Origin: Pseudomonas grandcourensis | Lineage (GTDB): Bacteria > Pseudomonadota > Gammaproteobacteria > Pseudomonadales > Pseudomonadaceae | Length of the DNA stretch: 64,000 nucleotides | Direction of reading: 5' to 3' | Assembly: GCF_039909015.1 (NCBI RefSeq) | Contig: NZ_CP150919.1 | Location: forward strand, 5,928,501 to 5,992,500 | Shown here: positions 26,575 through 38,258 of the stretch, one piece after another | Numbering within the stretch: position 1 is the stretch's first letter | Layout of the letters: each line of letters starts with the position of its first letter | Made by a program: the position numbers and the translations under genes | The notes under the pieces: generated by a model | The model's input: only the letters and a program-made list of their open reading frames with translations | Database searches by the model: none | Told to the model about the DNA's origin: nothing

Positions 26575-27015
26575 ATGTCCCCTATCGTTCTGGTGCTCAA
26601 CGGCCCGAACCTGAACCTGCTCGGCACTCGTGAACCGGCGACTTACGGCCACGAAACCCTGGCAGACATTTCGACCCTGTGCGCACGTAGCGCCGAAGAG
26701 TTCGGCCTGGCAGTGGAGTTTCGCCAGACCAACCATGAAGGCGAATTGCTCGACTGGATTCACGCCGCCCGCGGTCGCTGCGCCGGGATCGTCATCAATC
26801 CTGCCGCGTGGACCCACACCTCCGTTGCGATCCGCGATGCCCTGGTCGCCAGCGAACTGCCGGTGATCGAGGTCCACCTGTCCAACGTGCATGCCCGGGA
26901 GCCCTTCCGCCACCACTCGTTCGTATCCGCCATTGCAACGGCGGTGATGGCCGGTTTTGGCAGTCATGGCTATCGCCTGGCGCTGGAACACTTCAGTCAT
27001 CGCTTGAAGGGGTGA
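26575..27015 (+). CDS. aroQ: catabolic type II 3-dehydroquinate dehydratase
   Basis: This enzyme dehydrates 3-dehydroquinate to 3-dehydroshikimate. The 146 residues begin [23 protein letters not shown], with catalytic Tyr24 and His101 ([10 protein letters not shown]), both at canonical positions. It is followed after 5 bp by an AroE-like dehydrogenase and lies in a quinate locus, so it is the catabolic paralogue (like PA0245, aroQ2) rather than the biosynthetic one. The TetR-type operator and the CA motif just upstream point to induction by substrate and repression by preferred carbon sources. Confidence 0.95.
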
Positions 27016-27020
27016 TCGCA

Positions 27021-27875
27021 ATGACTCAGAACCACGTGATACTGGCCGGGCTGATTGGCGCCGGCATCCAGGCGTCCCGCACACCGGCCTTGCACGAGCA
27101 TGAAGGCGATGCCCAGGGGCTGCGCTACCTCTATCGCCTGATTGATCTTGATCAGCTGAAGCTCGACAGCAACGCCTTGCCCGACCTGTTGATGGCTGCC
27201 GAGCGCATGAACTACACCGGGCTGAACATCACCTTTCCCTGCAAGCAGGCGATCATCCCGCTGCTCGACGAACTCTCGCCGGAGGCCCGCGGTATCGGTG
27301 CGGTCAACACGGTGGTGCTCAAGGATGGCAAACGCGTCGGCCACAACACCGACTGCCTGGGCTTTGCCGAGGGTTTTCGCCGGGGCTTGAAAGGTGTTGC
27401 CGTTGAACGTGTCGTACAGATGGGCGCCGGCGGCGCAGGTGCGGCGGTGGCCCACGCATTGTTGAGCGAGGGCGTACAACAGCTGAGCATTTTTGACGTG
27501 GACATCCGCCGTGCCCAGGATCTGGCTGACAATCTCAATCAGCATTTCGGCGTCGCTCGGGCGGTGGCCGGGTATGACCTGCCCAACGCCATGGCCCTGG
27601 CTGATGGCTTGGTGAACACCACGCCGATGGGCATGAAAAAGCTGCCGGGCATGCCGGTGCCGGTCGAGCTGCTGCGGGCCGAATTGTGGGTGGCGGAGAT
27701 CGTTTACTTCCCGCTGGAAACCGAACTGCTGCGCAACGCCCGCGCCCTCGGTTGCCGGACGCTGGACGGCGGCAACATGGCGGTGTTTCAGGCGGTGAAG
27801 GCGTTCGAGTTGTTCAGCGGCGTGGTGCCGGATGCCCAGCGGATGCTTGAGCATTTCCAGAGCATGAATGACTGA
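27021..27875 (+). CDS. quinate/shikimate dehydrogenase (AroE-like)
   Basis: This NAD(P)-dependent enzyme of 284 residues probably oxidises shikimate and/or quinate to the 3-dehydro acids. The catalytic pair is present as Lys75 (TFPCKQ) and Asp111 (HNTDCLGF). The nucleotide site GAGGAGAAVAHALL is near residue 138. The substrate loop reads ASRTPALHEHEG instead of the biosynthetic SxSPxxHN, typical of catabolic YdiB/RifI-like members. The ATG at 27021 is five bases after the aroQ stop; the frame continues upstream inside aroQ but this is not used. Confidence 0.9.
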   Translation: MTQNHVILAGLIGAGIQASRTPALHEHEGDAQGLRYLYRLIDLDQLKLDSNALPDLLMAAERMNYTGLNITFPCKQAIIPLLDELSPEARGIGAVNTVVLKDGKRVGHNTDCLGFAEGFRRGLKGVAVERVVQMGAGGAGAAVAHALLSEGVQQLSIFDVDIRRAQDLADNLNQHFGVARAVAGYDLPNAMALADGLVNTTPMGMKKLPGMPVPVELLRAELWVAEIVYFPLETELLRNARALGCRTLDGGNMAVFQAVKAFELFSGVVPDAQRMLEHFQSMND

Positions 27876-27911: not shown

Positions 27912-28589
27912 TCAGGCTTGCAGGTACCGCAGAACCGACTCGCAAATCATCTCCCGATGACGCTGCTTGATGCCCTCGTCCGGCAGGTCGATCTGGAAAA
28001 TCTCACCAAAGGTATGGCGGTTCGAGACGCGATAGAAGCAGAACGAACTGATCAGCAGATGCACATCCAGCGGATCAAGCCCGGTACGGAACAGCCCTTG
28101 CTCGGCGCCTCGACGCAGAATCTCGCCCAGTGAATCGAGGATAGTGTTGTTCATCGCCTTGATCGCATCGGAGCGCTTCACATACTCGGCGTTGTGAATG
28201 TTCTCGATACTGACGATGCGCACGAAATCGACGTTGCGATCATGGTGGTCGAAGGTGAACTCCACCAGCCGCCGAATGGCTTCGATCGGCGCCAGTTCCG
28301 TCAGGTGCAGGCGATTTTCGGTGATGCGGATATCGCCGTAGAGTTTTTCCAGCACCTCGACGTAGAGCTGCTCCTTACTGCCGAAGTAGTAATAGATCAT
28401 GCGCTTGGAGGTGTGGATGCGCTCGGCGATGGCATCGACGCGAGCCCCGGAAAGCCCCTGCTGGACGAATTCGACAATCGCCTCCTGCAGGATGTTTTCG
28501 CGGGTCTTTTCCGGGTTGTTCTTGCGACTCTTGCGCGGCTCGGCACCAGGTTCTACGGAGGCTGCGGGGAGTTCTGAGGTCATTGTCAT
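27912..28589 (-). CDS. TetR-family regulator of the quinate/shikimate locus
   Basis: This 225-residue repressor has an N-terminal helix-turn-helix (ENILQEAIVEFVQQGLSGARVDAIAERIHTSKRMIYYYFGSKEQLY, about 29-75) and a helical ligand domain. It lies between aroE-like and quiC1, as PA0243 does in P. aeruginosa. It is the best candidate to bind the 18-bp operator found at both the aroQ and quiC1/MFS promoters. It may be read from the quiC1 transcript, since the gap is 102 bp on the same strand. The ligand is unknown; dehydroshikimate or protocatechuate is plausible. Confidence 0.88.
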   Translation of the reverse strand: MTMTSELPAASVEPGAEPRKSRKNNPEKTRENILQEAIVEFVQQGLSGARVDAIAERIHTSKRMIYYYFGSKEQLYVEVLEKLYGDIRITENRLHLTELAPIEAIRRLVEFTFDHHDRNVDFVRIVSIENIHNAEYVKRSDAIKAMNNTILDSLGEILRRGAEQGLFRTGLDPLDVHLLISSFCFYRVSNRHTFGEIFQIDLPDEGIKQRHREMICESVLRYLQA

Positions 28590-28691: not shown

Positions 28692-30593
28692 CTACAACTT
28701 CGCCTGGCGCAATGCGCCGCTACGGGATTTGGCCATGGCCGCCAGGCGCACCGCGACGTTGGCCGCGCCGTAGCCGGCATAACCGTTTTTACGCTGGATG
28801 ATCTCGAAGAAGAATCGCCCCTCGAACGGCTCGGTGTACACATGAAACAACTCACCGCCCTGTGCATCGCGGTCGTACAACACATTGTAGTAGGCCAGTT
28901 CGCTGAGGAACTCGTCGTCGAAATCGAACCGCGCCGCCAGGTCATCGTAGTAGTTGAGCGGGATATCCAGCAGCGGCACGCCCGCCTCTTTTGCACGACT
29001 GACCTGGGCAAAGATGTCATCACAATCAAACGCGATGTGATGCACGCCGGAGCCGCGATAACTCGACAGCGCGTGTGAGATCGCGGTGTTGCGGTTCTCG
29101 GAAATGTTCAGCGGCAGGCGGATCGAACTGTCGCGACTGCGCAAGGCACGGCTCTTCACCAGACCATAAGGATCCGGCAGCACGACTTCATCGTCCGCCT
29201 CGAAATCCAGCAGGCTCTTATAGAACAGCACCCAGCTGTCGAGGCTGTCGGCCGGCAGCGCCATGGCCATGTGGTCGATGCGCTTGAGGCCGCCGCTGAC
29301 CGGCGCATCCGCCAGCAGATTGAAGTCGGTGCCGTAGACGTCGGCATCCTGGTCCACCAGATAAATCAGGCTGCCATCCGGCGCACGCACCGCCGCCAGT
29401 TCCAGTTCATTGGGACCCACCAGCCCGCGATAGGGCTGGCCCTTGTAGGCCACGGCTCGGGCCAGCGCACTGGCGCTGTCCTTGACCCGCACGGCGGTGG
29501 CGCACAACGAAGGGCCGTGGGCCTCAAAGAAACTGTGAGCGAAGGAGTAAGGCTCGGAGTTGAGGATCAGGTTGATATCGCCCTGGCGCATCAGGCTGAC
29601 GCTCTTGGAACGATGCTGCCCGGCCTTGACGAAACCCAGTCGTTCCAGCCAATGGGCGAGCTTGGCGCCTAGGCTTTCGTCCACGGCAAACTCCAGGAAC
29701 TCGATGCCGTTGTACTCACTGGCCTTGGGCGTTTCGAACAGAATCTCGGAGTTAGCCGCAGGCTTGGCTTCCTGCGCCAGGCGCTCGCGGGTTTTCTCTT
29801 CCAGGTACAGCAACGAACGCAAGCCGTCGGCGGCGTTGGCCCGTGGCGGTGCGGCGCGGAAACCGTCGTTGAAGATCTCCAGCGACAGCGGCCCGGTGTA
29901 GCCGCTCTTGATGATCGGCGCGAGGAACCCCGGCAAGTCGAATTCACCCTGGCCCGGGAAGCAGCGAAAATGCCGGCTCCACTCCAGCACGTCCATGGCC
30001 AGGATCGGCGCGTCAGCCATTTGCACGAAGAAAATCTTGTCCCCGGGAATCTCGGCGATAGCGCTTGGATCGCCCTTGAGCGACAGGGTGTGAAAGCTGT
30101 CCAGCAACACGCCCAGGCTTGGGTGATCGGCCTGACGCACGATGTTCCACACCTGTTGCCAGGTGTTCACATGCCGGCCCCAGGCCAGCGCTTCGTAACC
30201 GATGCGCAGGCCCCGTGCTCCGGCGTGCTCAGCCAGCAGGCGCAAGTCGTCGACCAGGATCTGCTCATCACCGATGGACTCGGCCGAGGCGTTGCTGCAC
30301 ACCAGCACCAGGTCAGTGCCCAGCTCCTGCATCAGGTCGAACTTGCGTTCGGCGCGTTCCAGGTTGCGCGACAGGCGATCGCGGCGGCAGCCTTCGAAAT
30401 CGCGGAACGGTTGAAACAGCGTGATGGCGATCCCGAGATCGGCGCACATCTGTTTAATTTCCCGCGGACTGCCGTCGTAGTAGAGAAGGTCGTTCTCGAA
30501 AATCTCGACGCCGTCGAAACCGGCGGCGGCAATGGCTTCGAGTTTTTCCGGCAGGGTACCGCTCAAGGATACGGTGGCAATGGAACGCTGCAT
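28692..30593 (-). CDS. quiC1: 3-dehydroshikimate dehydratase QuiC1 (two-domain fusion)
   Basis: QuiC1 converts 3-dehydroshikimate to protocatechuate, the entry to the beta-ketoadipate pathway. The N-terminal TIM barrel (1-280) keeps all four metal ligands at expected positions: Glu134, Asp165, Gln191 and Glu239. The C-terminal half (about 290-633) is a 4-hydroxyphenylpyruvate-dioxygenase-like domain that still carries the 2-His-1-Glu set in IDHMAMAL, VHHIAFDC and FFFEIIQR. The 633 residues match P. putida QuiC1 and PA0242. GGGAG precedes the ATG, and the gene is divergent from the MFS transporter. Confidence 0.95.
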   Translation of the reverse strand: MQRSIATVSLSGTLPEKLEAIAAAGFDGVEIFENDLLYYDGSPREIKQMCADLGIAITLFQPFRDFEGCRRDRLSRNLERAERKFDLMQELGTDLVLVCSNASAESIGDEQILVDDLRLLAEHAGARGLRIGYEALAWGRHVNTWQQVWNIVRQADHPSLGVLLDSFHTLSLKGDPSAIAEIPGDKIFFVQMADAPILAMDVLEWSRHFRCFPGQGEFDLPGFLAPIIKSGYTGPLSLEIFNDGFRAAPPRANAADGLRSLLYLEEKTRERLAQEAKPAANSEILFETPKASEYNGIEFLEFAVDESLGAKLAHWLERLGFVKAGQHRSKSVSLMRQGDINLILNSEPYSFAHSFFEAHGPSLCATAVRVKDSASALARAVAYKGQPYRGLVGPNELELAAVRAPDGSLIYLVDQDADVYGTDFNLLADAPVSGGLKRIDHMAMALPADSLDSWVLFYKSLLDFEADDEVVLPDPYGLVKSRALRSRDSSIRLPLNISENRNTAISHALSSYRGSGVHHIAFDCDDIFAQVSRAKEAGVPLLDIPLNYYDDLAARFDFDDEFLSELAYYNVLYDRDAQGGELFHVYTEPFEGRFFFEIIQRKNGYAGYGAANVAVRLAAMAKSRSGALRQAKL

Positions 30594-30734: not shown

Positions 30735-30831
30735 TGGCCGATAGCGAATTGACGATTTTTTGTTCGCTGCGCAACATCGTCCTCACATTAAGTCCGGACA
30801 CGCAGCACCGGCCGCGATGTCCAAAACACCA

Positions 30832-30839
30832 AATAACAA
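30832..30839 (+). promoter_or_regulatory. Hfq/Crc CA motif before the quinate-locus MFS gene
   Basis: AATAACAA fits AANAANAA and lies 22 bases before the chosen ATG, in an A-rich leader. Confidence 0.5.
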
Positions 30840-30861
30840 ATTCAAAAAACGGGTGGTACAC

Positions 30862-32199
30862 ATGATTCCTTCCCAAAGCTCTCGCATGGCTCCAGCCATG
30901 AACGTCACTGCCGGCGGTATCGGCGACAAGATTCGCGGCGCCATGGCCGTCGGCAAAACCCGTTGGGGCATGCTGGCGCTGGTGTTCTTCGCCACCACCC
31001 TGAACTACATCGACCGCGCCGCCCTGGGCGTGATGCAGCCAATCCTGGCCAAGGAAATGAGCTGGACGGCGATGGACTACGCCAACATCAACTTCTGGTT
31101 CCAGGTCGGTTACGCCATCGGCTTCGTGCTGCAAGGCCGCTTGATCGACCGGGTCGGCGTCAAGCGCGTGTTCTTCTGCGCGGTGTTGCTCTGGAGCCTG
31201 GCAACCGGCGCCCACGGCCTGGCCACTTCGGCGGTCGGCTTCATGGTTTGCCGATTCATCCTCGGCCTGACCGAAGCGGCAAACTATCCGGCCTGCGTGA
31301 AAACCACCCGCCTGTGGTTCCCGGCCGGCGAGCGCGCCGTGGCCACCGGCATTTTCAACGCCGGCACCAACGTCGGTGCGATGTTCACACCCATGCTGCT
31401 GCCACTGATCCTGCACGTCTGGGGCTGGCAGGCCGCGTTCCTGTGCATGTCGGCACTGGGCGGGATCTGGCTGCTGTTCTGGGGCCTGAAGTACTTCAAC
31501 CCGGAAGACCATCCGAGCGTCAAACAGTCGGAGCTGGACTACATCCAGAACGAAGTCGAACCGGAACAAACCCGCGTACCGTTCTCGAAAATCCTGCGCA
31601 TGCGTGGCACCTGGGCCTTCGCCCTCGCCTACTCGATGACGGCGCCGGTGTTCTGGTTCTACCTGTACTGGCTGCCGCCGTTCCTCAACCAGCAATACAA
31701 CCTGGGCATCAACGTGACCCAGATGGGTATCCCGCTGATCATCATCTACCTCACTGCCGACTTCGGTAGCGTTGGCGGCGGCATCCTCTCCTCGTTCCTG
31801 ATCGGTCGCGGCGTCAATCCGATCAAGGCGCGACTGATGTCCATGTTCCTGTTCGCCTGCTGCATCATCGGCGTGATCATGGCGGCCGGCTCCAGCAACC
31901 TGTGGGTCGCGGTGTTCGCCATCTCCCTGGCCATCGGCGCGCACCAGGCCTGGACCGCGAACATCTGGAGCCTGGTGATGGACTACACGCCCAAGCACAT
32001 GATGAGTACGGTGTTCGGCTTCGGCGGCATGTGTGCGGCGATTGGCGGGATGTTCATGACCCAGCTGGTCGGCCACATCCTGACCGTCACCAACAACAAC
32101 TACACCGTGCTGTTCACCATGATTCCGGCGATGTACTTCATTGCGCTGACCTGGATGTACTTCATGGCACCGCGCAAGATTCCGAATGTAGAAGACTGA
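30862..32199 (+). CDS. MFS transporter for quinate/shikimate-type acids (ACS family)
   Basis: This inner-membrane importer has 445 residues and 12 helices. The N-terminal half shows FATTLNYIDRAALGVMQPILAKE (typical of anion:cation symporters), GRLIDRVGVKRVFF and RFILGLTEAANYPACVKTTRLWFP. It is divergent from quiC1 and corresponds to PA0241. The ATG at 30862 is preferred; further ATGs at 30886 and 30898 remain possible, since the ribosome site is weak. Likely cargo is quinate, shikimate or 3-dehydroshikimate. A strong terminator follows. Confidence 0.88.
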   Translation: MIPSQSSRMAPAMNVTAGGIGDKIRGAMAVGKTRWGMLALVFFATTLNYIDRAALGVMQPILAKEMSWTAMDYANINFWFQVGYAIGFVLQGRLIDRVGVKRVFFCAVLLWSLATGAHGLATSAVGFMVCRFILGLTEAANYPACVKTTRLWFPAGERAVATGIFNAGTNVGAMFTPMLLPLILHVWGWQAAFLCMSALGGIWLLFWGLKYFNPEDHPSVKQSELDYIQNEVEPEQTRVPFSKILRMRGTWAFALAYSMTAPVFWFYLYWLPPFLNQQYNLGINVTQMGIPLIIIYLTADFGSVGGGILSSFLIGRGVNPIKARLMSMFLFACCIIGVIMAAGSSNLWVAVFAISLAIGAHQAWTANIWSLVMDYTPKHMMSTVFGFGGMCAAIGGMFMTQLVGHILTVTNNNYTVLFTMIPAMYFIALTWMYFMAPRKIPNVED

Positions 32200-32262: not shown

Positions 32263-33141
32263 TTAGCGACGGCTCTGCTGCCAGGCCGCTGCCAACCCGC
32301 TGCAGCAGATCACGGCAATGCCGAGCACGGTGGTCGGTGTCGGCGTATGGGAAAACAGCAGCCAGCCCAGCAGGCCGGCGAAGATGATCTGGCAGTAGCT
32401 GAACGGCGCCAGCAGTGCTGGTGCCGCGAGACGGAAAGCCTGGGTCAGGAACAGGTGAGCCGTCATCCCGCAGGCCCCCAGCGCCAGCATCATCGCGCCA
32501 TGCACCAGGTTCGGCGTCTGCCAGAAGAACGGCACCAGCGCACTCATCACCAGCGTGTTGCACAAGCCTGCGAAGAAGTTGCTGGTGGTCGGGCTGTCGA
32601 TATCGCTGAGCTTGCGGGTCAGCAGTTGATAGAAACAGAAAAACAGCGCCGAACAGAACGGCAGCAACACCGCCGGGGTAAACAGATCACCACCAGGGTG
32701 AACGATGATCAGCACCCCGCTGAAACCGAAAATCACCGCCAGCCATTGCCCCCGCGTCACCCGCTCGCCAAGCAGCGGTACCGACAACGCGGTGACCAAC
32801 ACCGGCGCGAGGAAGTTGACCGACGTGGCCTCGGCCAGCGGGATGTACATCAGCCCCGTGGTGAAAAACAGACTGGTGCCCAGCAGGCACAGCGCCCGGA
32901 TCACCTGCAGTAATGGCCGTTTTGTACGCAGCACCCGCAGCCCGGATTGCGGCAGGAAAATCCCGGCCATCAGCAAGGTATGAACCACGTAACGCGCCCA
33001 GACCACCATGACAATGGGATAGAAACCGGAGAGGTATTTGGAAAAGGCGTCGTGGCTGGAAAACAGGAAGGTTGCGACAACGATCAGCAGGATGCCTTTG
33101 AAGGGCTGATTGACGCCGGAAAGCGGGGTGCTGACGGTCAT
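32263..33141 (-). CDS. DMT-superfamily (EamA) transporter
   Basis: This inner-membrane protein of 292 residues has ten helices and two EamA repeats (about 14-145 and 155-285). The repeat signatures are NFLAPVLVTALSVPLLGERVTRGQW and FSYCQIIFAGLLGWLLFSHTP. It lies downstream of the isomerase/dehydrogenase pair on the same strand after a 103-bp gap, so it may export or import a metabolite of that pathway. The cargo is unknown. Confidence 0.8.
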   Translation of the reverse strand: MTVSTPLSGVNQPFKGILLIVVATFLFSSHDAFSKYLSGFYPIVMVVWARYVVHTLLMAGIFLPQSGLRVLRTKRPLLQVIRALCLLGTSLFFTTGLMYIPLAEATSVNFLAPVLVTALSVPLLGERVTRGQWLAVIFGFSGVLIIVHPGGDLFTPAVLLPFCSALFFCFYQLLTRKLSDIDSPTTSNFFAGLCNTLVMSALVPFFWQTPNLVHGAMMLALGACGMTAHLFLTQAFRLAAPALLAPFSYCQIIFAGLLGWLLFSHTPTPTTVLGIAVICCSGLAAAWQQSRR

Positions 33142-33244
33142 GGGGTTTCCTTACTTGAAATCAAAAGCATCACGGGCAAACCACGCTTCCACCTGGTCAG
33201 CATAGAACCTGTGTGGCTTGCCCGAGATAGATGCGCAGCACCGA

Positions 33245-34060
33245 TTAGAGCCGCGCCAACAATTCCCGGGTTTTATCCAGCGCCATCTGCGCCCGGTCCA
33301 ATCCACTCACGCCCTGCTCCAGCAACTGCACCGTGGGAATCTCCAGGCTCAATGGAATGTCAGCCGGCAAACCGCGCAACAACCCCGGCAGGTCACAATC
33401 GCCATCGCCGGGGAAACGCCTTTCGTTACGCGCCTGACGCAAGATCTCCGCCATGTCGGCCGGCCGTGGTCCTGCGACGTCACACAACTGTGCATACCGT
33501 AACCGTGAGGGGGCAACTTTGGCCAGATCTTCCAGCCGCGATCCAGAGCGGTCGAAGTGGAAGGCGTCGACCAATACGCCGCCGTTTTCACGCCCGGCGT
33601 TTTCCACGATGCGCGTAGCTTGTTGAAGATTGCGCGCATCGGTCCAGGGCATGAACTCCAGGTGCGGGTGCAGCCCATAGGCTGCTGCCAGATCACAGAG
33701 CTGGGCAAAATGCTGCGTCAGCCGCTGTTCGTCAGGATCGTTACCGGCCACCAGCAACTCACTGGCGCCGAACTCGGCACCCACCGCGAGGATTTTCTCG
33801 AAATCGGCGACGATGGCTTCCGGCTTGAGCCGCAGGATTTCGACGTCCAGCACCCGAATACCGGTATCGCGCAGACGCGCCAGGGTCTGGCGCCGCAATT
33901 CGTGGTCGGCCACCAGGGCAAAATGGTGCTCCTCCGGAGTCGCCGGTACCAGACGCAAACCGACATGGCTGTAACCGGCCCGCGCGGCGACCTCGACCAT
34001 GTCGGGCGGTGACAACTCCAGCACGGTCAGGCTGGCCAGGGAGAAGATACGCTCGCTCAT
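33245..34060 (-). CDS. TIM-barrel sugar phosphate isomerase/epimerase
   Basis: This 271-residue AP-endonuclease-2-type barrel carries metal ligands in HLEFMPW (Glu), LVDAFHFDRSG (Asp/His), YAQLCDV (Gln) and LSLEIPT (Glu). This is the same Glu-Asp-Gln-Glu pattern as QuiC1. The ATG at 34060 follows the Gfo/Idh stop by two bases, so the two are translationally linked. The reaction could be an isomerisation, epimerisation or dehydration of a sugar, cyclitol or shikimate-like acid. Confidence 0.82.
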   Translation of the reverse strand: MSERIFSLASLTVLELSPPDMVEVAARAGYSHVGLRLVPATPEEHHFALVADHELRRQTLARLRDTGIRVLDVEILRLKPEAIVADFEKILAVGAEFGASELLVAGNDPDEQRLTQHFAQLCDLAAAYGLHPHLEFMPWTDARNLQQATRIVENAGRENGGVLVDAFHFDRSGSRLEDLAKVAPSRLRYAQLCDVAGPRPADMAEILRQARNERRFPGDGDCDLPGLLRGLPADIPLSLEIPTVQLLEQGVSGLDRAQMALDKTRELLARL

Positions 34061-34062
34061 GC

Positions 34063-35118
34063 TCAACCCTCGATCACGGATGGCGCGCAGGCACGCCCGG
34101 TTTCGGCGGCTTCGCGGATGGCTTCGATCAGCGCCAACGTACGCGCGGCATCGGCGGCACTCACCAGTGGCTCGACTTCCCGACGTGCAACGCGCACGAA
34201 GTGTTGCAACTGCAAACGCAGGGCTTCATCGGCACTGAAGCTTTCCTGGGTTGCCTGCAACGGTTGATGCCAGCCGCCGTCGACTTCGTCGTAGTGCCAG
34301 CGTTTAAGTTGCGGAATGCTCAGCGCCCCACCTGTCCCGGCCAGCAGATAGCACGGCTGATCAGGATGACGCGGATACACCGGGTTCTCCCCCGAATCCA
34401 GCTCCCAGCTCCAGGGCGCCGCCACCGCATCGGAGCCGGTCAGGCTGCCCAGTGCACCGTTGTCGAATTGCAGCAACACTGCCGCGCAATCCTCGTTGGC
34501 AAACCCGCGAATGGCATTGCTGGTGATGGCCTGAACCTGACGCACTTCACCGCATAAGTGCCGCAGCAGATCAAGGTCGTGGATCAGGTTGGTCAACAAC
34601 ATCCCCGCACCGGCCTCGCGGCGCCAGGGTGTTTCGAAATAGCTGTCGGGCTTGCGCAACTGCCAGAGCGCCGTGACCGTGGTCAACCGACCCAATGCGC
34701 CGCTGTGGACAAGTTCGTGGGCACGGACGATCAGCGGATTGTGCCGGCGGTGATGTCCGACCAGTACCGGAACGCCAGTCGCCTTCGAGGCAGCCACCAA
34801 CTCCCTGGCTTCATCCAGGTGCACGCCCACCGGTTTTTCCAGCAATACCGGCACACCGGCCGCGAGGCAATCGAGGGCCGTGCTGACGTGCTGCGTGTTC
34901 GGGTTGGCGACTATCACGGCGTCCGGCTTCGCCTGCTCCAGCATCTGACGATGATCGGCGAAACAGGCTACGCCCCATTGAGCCGCAAGACTGGCCGCCT
35001 GCGGTCCGGGATCGGCCACGGCGCACAACGTCACTTCAGCCAGGGATTGCAGGTGCTGGTAGTGCTGCTGGCCCATGTTGCCTGCACCGATCAGGGCGAT
35101 GCGAAGTGGCGAATTCAA
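34063..35118 (-). CDS. Gfo/Idh/MocA-family NAD(P)-dependent dehydrogenase
   Basis: This 351-residue protein has the Rossmann motif LRIALIGAGNMGQQHY at residues 5-20, the EKP motif in VLLEKPVGVHLDEA near 95, and the catalytic GGxxxDxxxH-like helix reading GMLLTNLIHDLDLLRHLCG. Family members oxidise sugars, inositols and similar polyols. The start is a TTG at 35118, chosen because AGAGGA lies seven bases upstream and the Rossmann strand begins at once. An operator-like palindrome lies upstream. Confidence 0.83.
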   Translation of the reverse strand: MNSPLRIALIGAGNMGQQHYQHLQSLAEVTLCAVADPGPQAASLAAQWGVACFADHRQMLEQAKPDAVIVANPNTQHVSTALDCLAAGVPVLLEKPVGVHLDEARELVAASKATGVPVLVGHHRRHNPLIVRAHELVHSGALGRLTTVTALWQLRKPDSYFETPWRREAGAGMLLTNLIHDLDLLRHLCGEVRQVQAITSNAIRGFANEDCAAVLLQFDNGALGSLTGSDAVAAPWSWELDSGENPVYPRHPDQPCYLLAGTGGALSIPQLKRWHYDEVDGGWHQPLQATQESFSADEALRLQLQHFVRVARREVEPLVSAADAARTLALIEAIREAAETGRACAPSVIEG

Positions 35119-35139
35119 GATGCGGTCCTCTTGTGAGTG

Positions 35140-35164
35140 TTATTGGAGCGATGAATTCCAATAA
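35140..35164. promoter_or_regulatory. long-spaced palindrome in the Gfo/Idh promoter
   Basis: Perfect 8-bp arms TTATTGGA and TCCAATAA are separated by 9 bp, directly next to the GAACC-type operator. No regulator is assigned. Confidence 0.4.
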
Positions 35165-35166
35165 TT

Positions 35167-35181
35167 TAGAACCTGGTTCCA
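35167..35181 (-). promoter_or_regulatory. IclR-type operator before the Gfo/Idh operon
   Basis: Read on the minus strand it is TGGAACCAGGTTCTA, with inner palindrome GAACC-N-GGTTC. It shares 12 of 14 bases with the site at 36190-36203 upstream of the flavoprotein, and the iclR gene lies between them. Confidence 0.6.
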
Positions 35182-35278
35182 GATTCTTACACAGACCTGT
35201 CCTGAAAGTGTTCGAACAGCGCACAGCTTCTCAAGCTGAACAAAGAGCTCGCTCCTACAAAGTTTTTTTGCGAGGGTC

Positions 35279-36055
35279 TTAAGCAAACAACTCCGACGCC
35301 AAACTCGCCGCCGACAACTCCTCGGTGTACGCCAGCAACAACGGCGCCAGCTCATGCAGCCGCGCCCCCGGCATCCGTGCACTCGGCCCGGCGATGCTGA
35401 GCACACCGATCACCCGTCCATCGGCGGGATGGCGCACCACTGCCGCAATCGCCGAAGTGCCCACCGCCGAGCTTTCTTCAACCCAGGCGTAGCCTTGCTC
35501 CCGCGCCAGACGCAGGCGTTCGAGCAATTCGATGTTCGAGCGTGGCGCGTTCGGCCCCACATGTTCCGGCACCTGCGCACCCTGCCGTTCCACCAGCGAC
35601 AAGGCTTCGGCATCGCTCATGCACGCCAGCCACGCATGCCCCGAGGCTGTGTAGAACAACGGCGCATCGCGGCCCATGTCCGGGTCGTAACGCAGACCGG
35701 AGCGCGCGCCCTGGGATTTGGCGATCCAGGTCTGACGCTCACCGTCGATCACCCCGAGACGCACCAGCTCGCCGGTTGCCTGAGCCAGGCGGTCAAGCAC
35801 CGGCTGCACGATATCGGTACCGCTGCTCGACAGGTAACGGAAGCCCATCGCCACCAGTTTGGTCGAGAGGTGATAACGCAAATTATCCGGATTCTGCCGC
35901 ACATAACCGAGGCGGATCAGCTCGGCCAGCAGGCGATGGGTCGCGCTCTTGGGGATGTCCAGTTGCTCCGCCAGGGTCTGCATCGGCAGGCCATGGGGAT
36001 CGCTGGTGAGGCTTTCGAGCACACTGAAAACACGTTCGATCTGACTGCCGGCCAT
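35279..36055 (-). CDS. IclR-family regulator
   Basis: This 258-residue regulator has a winged helix (RVFSVLESLTSDPHGLPMQTLAEQLDIPKSATHRLLAELIRLGYV, about 8-52) and an IclR ligand domain (about 75-250). The ATG at 36055 has GGAAG six bases upstream; a GTG at 36067 is possible. Matching GGAACCAGRTTCYA sites upstream of the Gfo/Idh operon and of the divergent flavoprotein gene suggest it controls both. Confidence 0.88.
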   Translation of the reverse strand: MAGSQIERVFSVLESLTSDPHGLPMQTLAEQLDIPKSATHRLLAELIRLGYVRQNPDNLRYHLSTKLVAMGFRYLSSSGTDIVQPVLDRLAQATGELVRLGVIDGERQTWIAKSQGARSGLRYDPDMGRDAPLFYTASGHAWLACMSDAEALSLVERQGAQVPEHVGPNAPRSNIELLERLRLAREQGYAWVEESSAVGTSAIAAVVRHPADGRVIGVLSIAGPSARMPGARLHELAPLLLAYTEELSAASLASELFA

Positions 36056-36189
36056 GGTCGCTTCCACGCAAAATTTGCTCGATTCTAGAAGACAACCGCA
36101 CGAATGCGAAATCTGGAACTGACCGTTCGATAACCGCCCGTTTTACGCCCCCCAGACTTGTTCGGCCTCACCCGATTCTTATATTTTCC

Positions 36190-36203
36190 GGAACCAGATT
36201 CCA
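36190..36203 (+). promoter_or_regulatory. IclR-type operator before the flavoprotein gene
   Basis: GGAACCAGATTCCA is an imperfect palindrome (GGAA-N6-TTCC). It is a close copy of the site before the Gfo/Idh operon and lies 28 bp before the flavoprotein ATG. Confidence 0.6.
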
Positions 36204-36205
36204 CA

Positions 36206-36213
36206 AAAAATAA
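36206..36213 (+). promoter_or_regulatory. Hfq/Crc CA motif before the flavoprotein gene
   Basis: AAAAATAA fits AANAANAA and lies 18 bases before the ATG, just upstream of the GGAG ribosome site. Confidence 0.5.
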
Positions 36214-36231
36214 AACACCGGAGTTCAAACA

Positions 36232-37998
36232 ATGCCTGCCGAAGCGCACTTTCTTCCCGACATCGACTGCGATGTGCTGATCGTTGGCTCCGGTGCGGCG
36301 GGACTGTCGGCGGCCGTGACCGCCGCGTGGCACGGGCTGAAAGTCATAGTGGTGGAAAAGGACCCGGTGTTCGGCGGCGCCACGGCCTGGTCCGGTGGCT
36401 GGGCCTGGGTGCCCTGCAACCCGCTGGCCCGACGCGCGGGCATCGTCGAAGACGTTGAACTGCCGCGTACTTACCTGAAGCACGAACTGGGCGAGCGTTT
36501 TGATCCGGCGATGATCGACGCTTTCCTGGAGGCCGGCCCGCGGATGGTGTCGTTCTTCGAGCAGCACACTTCGCTGCAATTTTCCGACGGCAATGCCATT
36601 GCCGACATTCATGGCGACACGCCCGGGGCCGGCACCGGTGGACGCTCGGTGATCGCCGCCCCTTACGACGCACGCAAAGTCGGCACGCTGCTCAAGCGCC
36701 TGCGCAAAACCATGCGGGAAACCTCGTTCATGGGCATGCCGATCATGGCGGGGGCGGACCTCACGGCATTCCTCAACCTGACCCGCTCACTGTCGGCGGC
36801 CTGGCACGTTACCCGGCGTTTCAGCCGGCACCTGTTCGACCTCGCCATGCATGGCCGGGCGATGCAACTGGTCAACGGCGTGGCCTTGGTGGCACGGCTG
36901 GCGAAATCCGCCGATGACCTCGGCGTGTCGCTCTGGGAATCAGCGCCCGTGACCCGATTGCTGCGCGAGAATGATCAGGTACGAGGTGCAGTGGTCATCA
37001 CCGCCAAAGGCTCGGTGCGCATCCATGCACGCAAGGCCGTGGTGCTCGCCGCGGGTGGTTTCGCCAATGACATCGCACGCCGCAAGGCACTGTTCCCCCG
37101 TACACCGACCGGGCATGAGCATCTGGCCTTGCCGCCCCTCGGCGTTTGCGGCGATGGCCTGCGCCTGGGCGAAAGTGCCGGTGCCAGGGTCAATAGCGAC
37201 ATGGCGTCCGCCGTCGCCTGGGCGCCGGTTTCGCAGGTGCCGCACAGCGACGGCAGCACGGGGCACTTCCCGCACATCATCGAGCGGGGCAAACCCGGCA
37301 TCATCGGTGTGCTGAGCAACGGCCAGCGCTTCGTAAATGAAGCCAACGGATACTACGACTACGTTACGGCCATGGTCGCCACCGCTCCGCCGGGTGAAGA
37401 AGTGGCGTCGTGGCTGATCTGCACCCATGGCTTTCAGCGTCGATATGGCCTGGGCATCTCTCGGCCATTTCCGGTGCCGCTGTCATCCTTCATCCGCAGC
37501 GGCTATCTGAAAACCGGCAACACCCTTGAGGAATTGGCTGCTGCCTGCGGCATCGACCCGGTTGGCTTGCGCAGCACCGTGTCGGACTACAACCGCCACG
37601 CGCGCAACGGCGAGGACCCGCAGTTCGGTCGTGGTTCCACGCCCTACAACCGCAAGCAGGGTGACGCACTGCAACGACCCAACCCATGCGTCGCACCGAT
37701 CGAGCAAGGCCCCTTCTATGCCGTGAAAGTCCAGCCGGGCTGCTTCGGCACCTTCGCCGGACTCAAGGTCAACCAACATGCCCAGGTCCTGGATGGCGCG
37801 GCGCAACCCATCGCCGGCCTGTACGCGGCGGGCGGCGACATGGCCAGCATCATGGGCGGCCACTACCCCGCTGGCGGCATCAACCTTGGCCCGGCGCTGA
37901 CCTTCGGCTACATCGCCGCGCACCACATCGCAGGCGTCACTGCTTATGAAAAGGAGATCGACCATGCGGCACAAACGAGATCGTCAGGTCAACCCTGA
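36232..37998 (+). CDS. FAD-dependent dehydrogenase of the KstD/fumarate-reductase flavoprotein family
   Basis: This 588-residue FAD_binding_2 enzyme has the dinucleotide motif CDVLIVGSGAAGLSAAV at residues 13-29 and GGATAWSGGWAWVP near 45. The C-terminal GGHYPAGGINLGPALTFGYIA resembles the 3-ketosteroid-1-dehydrogenase signature, where a Tyr and Gly in this loop act on a cyclic ketone. No steroid genes are nearby. With a Gfo/Idh dehydrogenase and a TIM-barrel isomerase under a shared operator, an alicyclic keto acid is a plausible substrate. This is inference. Confidence 0.82.
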   Translation: MPAEAHFLPDIDCDVLIVGSGAAGLSAAVTAAWHGLKVIVVEKDPVFGGATAWSGGWAWVPCNPLARRAGIVEDVELPRTYLKHELGERFDPAMIDAFLEAGPRMVSFFEQHTSLQFSDGNAIADIHGDTPGAGTGGRSVIAAPYDARKVGTLLKRLRKTMRETSFMGMPIMAGADLTAFLNLTRSLSAAWHVTRRFSRHLFDLAMHGRAMQLVNGVALVARLAKSADDLGVSLWESAPVTRLLRENDQVRGAVVITAKGSVRIHARKAVVLAAGGFANDIARRKALFPRTPTGHEHLALPPLGVCGDGLRLGESAGARVNSDMASAVAWAPVSQVPHSDGSTGHFPHIIERGKPGIIGVLSNGQRFVNEANGYYDYVTAMVATAPPGEEVASWLICTHGFQRRYGLGISRPFPVPLSSFIRSGYLKTGNTLEELAAACGIDPVGLRSTVSDYNRHARNGEDPQFGRGSTPYNRKQGDALQRPNPCVAPIEQGPFYAVKVQPGCFGTFAGLKVNQHAQVLDGAAQPIAGLYAAGGDMASIMGGHYPAGGINLGPALTFGYIAAHHIAGVTAYEKEIDHAAQTRSSGQP

Positions 37999-38258
37999 CT
38001 TTGCGCCGGTATGGGATGCATTCGACGAATAATCCGCAAGACCGGCGATCGCTCTCTCGATAAAAACCTATCGCAGGACGGAATTCGACGGGATATCCGT
38101 GTTCAATACAAACCTGAAACCTTCTCGGCAGCCCCTCGCGGGTGGCCGGGAATCAGCCTGTGCGCGAAAAAAAGACGGACGACCGGACTGGCGCCGCTCC
38201 CACTTGGCAGCAACACTCATCGCACGGAGCTTTACCCGGAACAGAAGAGGATTCCCAC

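Follow-up and report, generated by a model that had tools for sequence, protein, structure and literature searches.

Genes and operators at the locus

The window, a stretch of 64,000 nucleotides from the 6.76 Mb genome of Pseudomonas grandcourensis (G000; contig NZ_CP150919.1, positions 5,928,501 to 5,992,500), contains a gene cluster of two outward-facing units with an iclR gene between them. The minus-strand unit has the order gfo-tim-dmt. Its first gene encodes a Gfo/Idh dehydrogenase (Gfo, 34063–35118), a predicted ring-hydroxyl dehydrogenase. It is followed by the gene of a TIM-barrel enzyme (AP_endonuc_2; 33245–34066), which has a QuiC1-like metal site and is a predicted ring dehydratase or isomerase. 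The last gene encodes a DMT/EamA permease, a predicted transporter (32263–33141; PF00892, 88.6 bits). The barrel and Gfo frames share 4 bases with the first start codon used, as listed here. The regulator of the IclR family is encoded on the minus strand as well (35279–36067). On the other side of iclR, the divergent plus-strand gene (36232–37998) encodes a KstD/ChcC2-type FAD flavoprotein, a predicted ketone-directed ring desaturase.

A palindromic operator precedes each unit. The operator TGGAACCAGGTTCTA lies upstream of gfo-tim-dmt (35167–35181, minus strand; TAGAACCTGGTTCCA is read at the same site) and CGGAACCAGATTCCA lies upstream of the flavoprotein gene (36189–36203, plus strand). A sequence-only reading of the window had described these five genes (isomerase-type barrel, Gfo/Idh dehydrogenase, DMT permease, IclR, KstD-like flavoprotein) as a catabolic regulon. 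All five are present and their Pfam domains agree with these families. The regulator carries HTH_IclR (PF09339, 59.1 bits) and IclR_C (PF01614, 91.8 bits), the domains of the IclR family, and scores 110.2 bits with the PcaR/PcaU/PobR subfamily model TIGR02431, below its cut-off of 284.75.

A quinate locus adjoins the cluster on the left. It comprises AroQ, a type II 3-dehydroquinate (DHQ) dehydratase (26575–27015, plus strand; PF01220, 203.7 bits), a shikimate/quinate-dehydrogenase-like gene with an inferred start codon (27021–27875, plus strand), a TetR regulator (27912–28589, minus strand; PF00440, PF17938), the 3-dehydroshikimate dehydratase QuiC1 (28692–30593, minus strand; 1291 bits with NF042435, cut-off 1200) and an MFS transporter between quiC1 and the regulon (30760–32199, plus strand; PF07690). 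The ten proteins mapped here share 95–100% identity with their counterparts in P. fluorescens strain C8 (L077).

Downstream of the flavoprotein gene, a scar is all that is left of an aldo/keto reductase (AKR) gene, namely its final 19 codons (37973–38029, plus strand; 84% identity over AKR residues 267–285). Strain C8 still has the AKR gene. The flavoprotein frame extends into the scar and has 588 codons, compared with 582 in many close relatives.

Family assignments of the three enzymes

The barrel had been said to share the Glu-Asp-Gln-Glu pattern of QuiC1, and the alignment bears this out: E137, D167, Q193 and E242 of the barrel align with E134, D165, Q191 and E239 of QuiC1. Seven of the ten active-site residues of QuiC1 listed in an extract of PMC7442255 are retained (E134, D165, H168, Q191, R210, E239 and L97 in QuiC1 numbering). 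IolI has a His where the barrel and QuiC1 have the Gln of the metal site. The QuiC/3-dehydroshikimate dehydratase equivalog NF042435 is the only NCBIfam match of the barrel at E ≤ 0.001, with 38.4 bits below the cut-off of 1200.

In the flavoprotein, FAD_binding_2 (PF00890, 360 bits) spans residues 14–552 as a whole-protein domain. The model NF004789 is matched above its cut-off, and 7p18 and 4c3x are relatives. The proposed likeness to KstD holds in part. Residues Y374, Y545 and G549 match Tyr318, Tyr487 and Gly491 of KstD1 (residue roles from an extract of PMC6130075; the 4c3x chain was converted to KstD1 numbering by a 20-residue offset) and are invariant in 15 aligned sequences. The position of Tyr119, on the other hand, is occupied by Ile126, with His127 next to it. 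The best model among those named for a reaction is NF053677 (ChcC2, 4-oxocyclohex-2-ene-1-carboxylate 5-dehydrogenase), with 517.5 bits below the cut-off of 900.

Relatives of the flavoprotein are named FAD-dependent oxidoreductase in databases, some of them 3-oxosteroid 1-dehydrogenase. With the 3-oxosteroid dehydrogenase models the flavoprotein scores 438.9 bits (PRK12844, cut-off 789) and 391.5 bits (PRK07843, cut-off 788), and a steroid substrate was rejected because it lies below these cut-offs. A second KstD-like locus is present in the same genome (L212, G000:C1:2209000-2228900) and encodes flavoproteins of 580 and 559 amino acids. Judged by eye, the proteins next to them resemble short-chain dehydrogenases, a CoA ligase and a ferredoxin-type reductase. 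It possibly serves steroid or other ring catabolism and, at 36% identity, is separate from the system described here.

Gfo matches PF01408 (95.9 bits), PF22725 (82.9 bits) and PF02894 (74.2 bits), each above the gathering score, and belongs to the Gfo/Idh/MocA family. Its best named model is TIGR04380 (IolG inositol 2-dehydrogenase), with 153.5 bits below the cut-off of 355.

Conservation of the operator and of the gene set

Near-identical operators in front of both outward-facing units, with iclR between them, had been noted before; both are read in the window and both are conserved across loci. The pattern TGGAACCNGRTTCYA, derived from these two window sites, occurs with at most one mismatch at four places in the whole genome, two of which are these operators. 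None of the query-set genes is found at the other two (L213, L214). With at most two mismatches there are 49 and 53 places genome-wide, compared with 36 and 31 for a reversed-pattern control. Because these counts are not much higher than those of the control, the operator sequence says little by itself and its conservation is the better test.

Upstream regions were scanned for at least 11 of 14 matches over 260 bases upstream and 60 bases into the gene. Upstream pieces of less than 200 bases and flavoproteins of less than 68% identity were left out, the window is counted within the 104 loci and some named loci come from genomes that the numbered set covers as well. As the consensus came from the window, its close relatives do not count as independent tests. 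The operator is present near the start of the flavoprotein gene in 83 of 104 loci (28 of 32 among the genus-level loci L031–L070) and near the start of gfo in 93 of 104 (18 of 18). Mononucleotide shuffle controls gave 6/520 and 5/520, respectively. In front of the barrel gene it is found in 20 of 127 loci, namely 19 of the 29 without a detected Gfo and one of the 98 with Gfo. It is rarely or never found in front of DMT (2/91), MFS (0/92) and QuiC1 (1/101) genes. Since the barrel mostly has the site when no Gfo is found and the inner and quinate genes hardly ever do, the operator goes with whichever gene comes first in a unit.

The operator is also present at the iclR start in 75 of 118 loci, which is no separate evidence because iclR has its upstream region in common with the flavoprotein gene. 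In eight genus-level loci the flavoprotein is located away from this iclR (L035, L036, L038–L042 and L067), and six of the eight retain the operator (L040 and L067 score below 11). The conservation of the operator supports one regulon, and both palindromes are predicted binding sites of the IclR protein.

Several features of the displaced flavoprotein genes were seen in passing. The flavoprotein of L067 adjoins another IclR gene (47% identical), and genes of a single MCP cluster, possible counterparts of PcaY, adjoin the flavoprotein in L035, L038, L039, L041 and L042 (Pfam-checked in L035). In L230 and L231 (with L040 and L067), which represent two genomes, the flavoprotein is outside the cluster and the site reaches only 10/14.

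Co-occurrence was counted in 149 genomes of the genus, with the flavoprotein at 68% identity or more, the barrel at E ≤ 1e-40 and Gfo at E ≤ 1e-60. The flavoprotein is present in 46 genomes (in pieces in two of them, G076 and G080), the barrel in 47, Gfo in 46 and QuiC1 in 124. The barrel is present in all 46 flavoprotein genomes and in all 46 Gfo genomes; Fisher's p for flavoprotein and barrel is 7e-38, a value not corrected for common descent. QuiC1 is found in 47 of 47 barrel genomes and in 77 of the 102 others. The survey of co-occurrence suggested with the sequence-only reading could have refuted the set and did not, as flavoprotein, barrel and Gfo are almost perfectly paired.

Nine of the 46 Gfo genomes have Gfo only as a copy of 43–46% identity, beside the barrel in G023 and elsewhere in the other eight. 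Five of these eight unlinked copies lie near a type II DHQ dehydratase, adjacent in L221, L224 and L228 and at about 1.5 kb in L222 and L227. This suggests a Gfo-family quinate-type dehydrogenase. A LysR-cluster gene stands divergent beside the distant Gfo in L221, L222, L224 and L227 (Pfam-checked in L221 and L227).

When named genomes were searched for the barrel, there were 172 matches, and the best 80 were evaluated; these are from Pseudomonas, two Azotobacter and one Stutzerimonas, some of them on short contigs. These 80 loci contain the flavoprotein in 63 cases, IclR in 74, Gfo in 70, DMT in 76, MFS in 73, QuiC1 in 73 and the AKR gene in 49. The unbroken order flavoprotein-IclR-Gfo-barrel-DMT is seen in 53. 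DMT adjoins the barrel in 76 of the 80 and, at 38–40% identity, also in L172 and L173. It is plausible that the permease belongs to the set; its transport role is a guess from its family. As in the two genomes with L230 and L231, the flavoprotein is gone from the cluster in named P. protegens and P. chlororaphis loci such as L125 and L123; in all of these, pcaG-like genes, often with AKR, are found there.

Beyond the family level, the barrel (E ≤ 1e-40) is present in 21 of 398 genomes of the phylum, the window's own included. Neighbourhood maps, from which matches covering less than 40% of the query were dropped, were counted for 20 of the 23 non-own barrel loci; the three loci outside the count (L209–L211) all have such neighbours as well. 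Within about 10 kb of the 20 barrels there are a KstD-like flavoprotein in 11, a shikimate-dehydrogenase-like protein in 12, Gfo in 6, AroQ in 5, QuiC1 in 8, IclR in 7 and pca genes in 5. At least one of KstD-like flavoprotein, Gfo or shikimate-dehydrogenase-like dehydrogenase, AroQ and QuiC1 is found at 16 of 20 barrel loci, compared with one of 20 control stretches chosen arbitrarily in the same genomes (taken at contig starts or at fixed positions rather than at random, two of them only 1.5 and 2.3 kb long). Barrel and flavoprotein are adjacent in L172–L174, L181, L182 and L185. L179 has a shikimate-dehydrogenase-like protein, a KstD-like flavoprotein (FADa) and the barrel in one row, and L180 has the order AroQ-Gfo-TIM-AKR.

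In P. putida-type loci (e.g. L032:699-6249) a second operon adjoins the cluster, next to the same MFS gene. It encodes a PcaR/PcaU/PobR-type IclR (303.5 bits, above the cut-off), a shikimate-dehydrogenase-like protein (33.6% identity to the protein of the window's quinate locus) and two KstD-like flavoproteins, and has no dehydratase. In such sister clusters a shikimate-dehydrogenase-like protein replaces or joins Gfo.

A predicted route to protocatechuate

The conserved operator, the co-occurrence and the quinate, shikimate and pca neighbours agree with the earlier proposal of a single regulon tied to quinate catabolism. In our estimate there is an even chance that the set is an IclR-controlled route which converts a shikimate relative with a saturated ring, most probably dihydroshikimate (3,4,5-trihydroxycyclohexanecarboxylate), to the aromatic compound protocatechuate. 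The MFS or DMT permease would import the acid. Gfo, or the shikimate-dehydrogenase-like enzyme in sister clusters, would oxidise a ring hydroxyl to the 3-ketone. The barrel, with its QuiC1-type metal site and His170 and Arg216, would dehydrate the β-hydroxyketone and the KstD-like flavoprotein would desaturate the C–C bond beside the ketone, completing the aromatic ring. If desaturation precedes dehydration, the product would be 3-dehydroshikimate, which the adjoining QuiC1 could finish. Protocatechuate would then enter the β-ketoadipate (pca) pathway. IclR would control both units through the two operators.

The flavoprotein points to a ring-saturated substrate, since a ring no more reduced than that of 3-dehydroshikimate would not require a KstD-type desaturase. 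By oxidation level, one dehydrogenase, one dehydratase and one desaturase would take dihydroshikimate exactly to protocatechuate, which makes it the best-fitting substrate. The sister operon, with enzymes for one oxidation and two desaturations, would likewise fit the conversion of 3,4-dihydroxycyclohexanecarboxylate to protocatechuate. Lactic acid bacteria reportedly make dihydroshikimate from quinate, to judge by the title of a paper by Carr from 1957 that is listed among the references of PMC10558750. Oxidation of dihydroshikimate to 3,4-dihydroxy-5-oxocyclohexanecarboxylate is described in an extract of PMC9171043, and an extract of PMC9795900 describes the aromatisation of 4-oxocyclohexanecarboxylate by two desaturases in aerobic degraders of cyclohexanecarboxylate. 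Our wider proposal is tentative: proteobacteria including Pseudomonas may have a dedicated pathway for the re-aromatisation of dihydroshikimate, which fermenting bacteria form by reduction of quinate or shikimate, with a Gfo/Idh dehydrogenase, a QuiC1-like dehydrating barrel and a KstD-family desaturase of a polyhydroxy carbocyclic acid, and the sister operon may do the same for 3,4-dihydroxycyclohexanecarboxylate.

A number of observations weigh against the dihydroshikimate route. At the level of the enzymes, Ser206 and Leu136 of QuiC1 are replaced in the barrel by Ala212 and Met139, and Arg64 is left unpaired in the alignment, unless the gap is shifted to Arg79. The Tyr119 of KstD1 is not retained in the flavoprotein. 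The flavoprotein is below the cut-offs of the ChcC and 3-oxosteroid models given above, and Gfo is below those of the equivalogs reported for it. Among the loci, the operator falls short of 11/14 in front of 21 of the 104 flavoprotein genes, among them four of the 32 in genus-level loci (L040, L052, L058 and L067). The same is true of 10 of the 29 barrels for which no Gfo was found, each of them in a locus from a more distant genome. An operator had been predicted beforehand for the distant unlinked Gfo copies (43–46% identity) and was found at none of eight. G146 has the barrel without a flavoprotein of at least 68% identity, and in G139 the barrel is a 43% match only and Gfo is absent. Seventeen of the 80 named barrel loci, a few of which are short contigs, lack the flavoprotein, and no hydroaromatic neighbours were seen at 4 of the 20 phylum loci (L177, L186, L188 and L191). 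Finally, the nearest folds to the barrel are IolI and Lmo2234, which has no assigned function, alongside QuiC1; the barrel could be an isomerase or epimerase rather than a dehydratase.

In that case the same regulon might serve a stereoisomer of quinate or shikimate. Gfo would oxidise it, the barrel would epimerise the ketone in the manner of IolI-like and allulose-epimerase-like barrels, the conversion would be completed by AroQ and QuiC1, and the flavoprotein would act on a side branch. We regard this as unlikely. It does not account for the fact that barrel and flavoprotein are almost always paired (46 of 47 genomes), and the barrel has the metal-site Gln of QuiC1, where IolI has His, and retains the His and Arg of QuiC1.

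Degradation of a less oxidised cyclohexane carboxylate, similar to the ChcC1/ChcC2 route to 4-hydroxybenzoate, is suggested by ChcC2 being the best reaction-named model of the flavoprotein and by the two further KstD-like enzymes that adjoin the cluster in P. putida-type genomes. It is improbable nonetheless: the flavoprotein is well short of the ChcC2 cut-off, 4-oxocyclohexanecarboxylate needs neither a dehydratase-like barrel nor a polyol-type dehydrogenase, and no P450 was found among the few Pfam-checked neighbours, although no search was aimed at P450 genes.

The sequence-only reading had left the substrate as an alicyclic polyol or keto acid that might be inositol-, quinate- or shikimate-like. 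An alicyclic keto or hydroxy acid resembling quinate or shikimate is still favoured; the inositol-like part was rejected on model scores and neighbour genes. A cyclitol set would consist of an IolG-like Gfo, an IolE/IolI-like barrel and a flavoprotein acting on an inosose. IolG is indeed the best named model of Gfo, and IolI is one of the two nearest barrel folds with an assigned function. The IolG score is well under its cut-off, however, and QuiC is the sole NCBIfam match of the barrel. The genes that recur nearby are those of quinate, shikimate and pca metabolism (QuiC1, AroQ, shikimate-dehydrogenase-like), although no search was aimed at iol genes. No inositol route is known to require a ring desaturase of this type, and we consider a cyclitol set very improbable. 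That the genes are neighbours without a common pathway is hardly credible: every protein is from a large, versatile superfamily, but the operator is shared, the genes co-occur even when unlinked and the same partners are repeatedly re-assembled in distant proteobacteria.

If the dihydroshikimate route is correct, three enzyme groups known mainly by family would gain a function in many Pseudomonas genomes, and KstD flavoproteins would gain a new substrate class. It would also complete a carbon cycle: quinate of plant origin, once reduced by fermenting bacteria, would be oxidised again by aerobes. As the sequence-only reading had supposed, there appears to be no named pathway with this gene set; none was found in open-access papers, which is weak evidence of novelty.

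Among known systems, the QuiC1 route for quinate and shikimate is encoded at the adjacent locus and has the same predicted end product. The barrel has the fold of the QuiC1 dehydratase domain, with the same metal set, His and Arg, but is a single domain of 273 residues. The present set further includes a Gfo-type dehydrogenase and a flavin desaturase, and the regulon has its own IclR and an operator that QuiC1 and MFS genes practically lack. The shikimate-dehydrogenase-like proteins of Pseudomonas include a RifI2 type; a shikimate-dehydrogenase-like protein is present in sister clusters, outside this regulon, and the one in L032 is a candidate RifI2. The flavoprotein shares the FAD_binding_2 fold and the equivalents of Tyr318, Tyr487 and Gly491 with the 3-ketosteroid Δ1-dehydrogenases KstD and AcmB. 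It differs from them by the Ile at the Tyr119 position, and there are no steroid genes among the identified neighbours. The combination of a Gfo/Idh dehydrogenase and a xylose-isomerase-like barrel is also that of IolG/IolE/IolI, from which the set differs by the low IolG score, the metal-site Gln in place of the IolI His and the hydroaromatic neighbours. The desaturases ChcC1 and ChcC2 of Sinomonas aromatise an oxocyclohexane carboxylate (extract of PMC9795900). In the system proposed here, dehydration would provide part of the unsaturation, and the predicted substrate is a 3-oxo polyhydroxy acid, not a 4-oxo acid.

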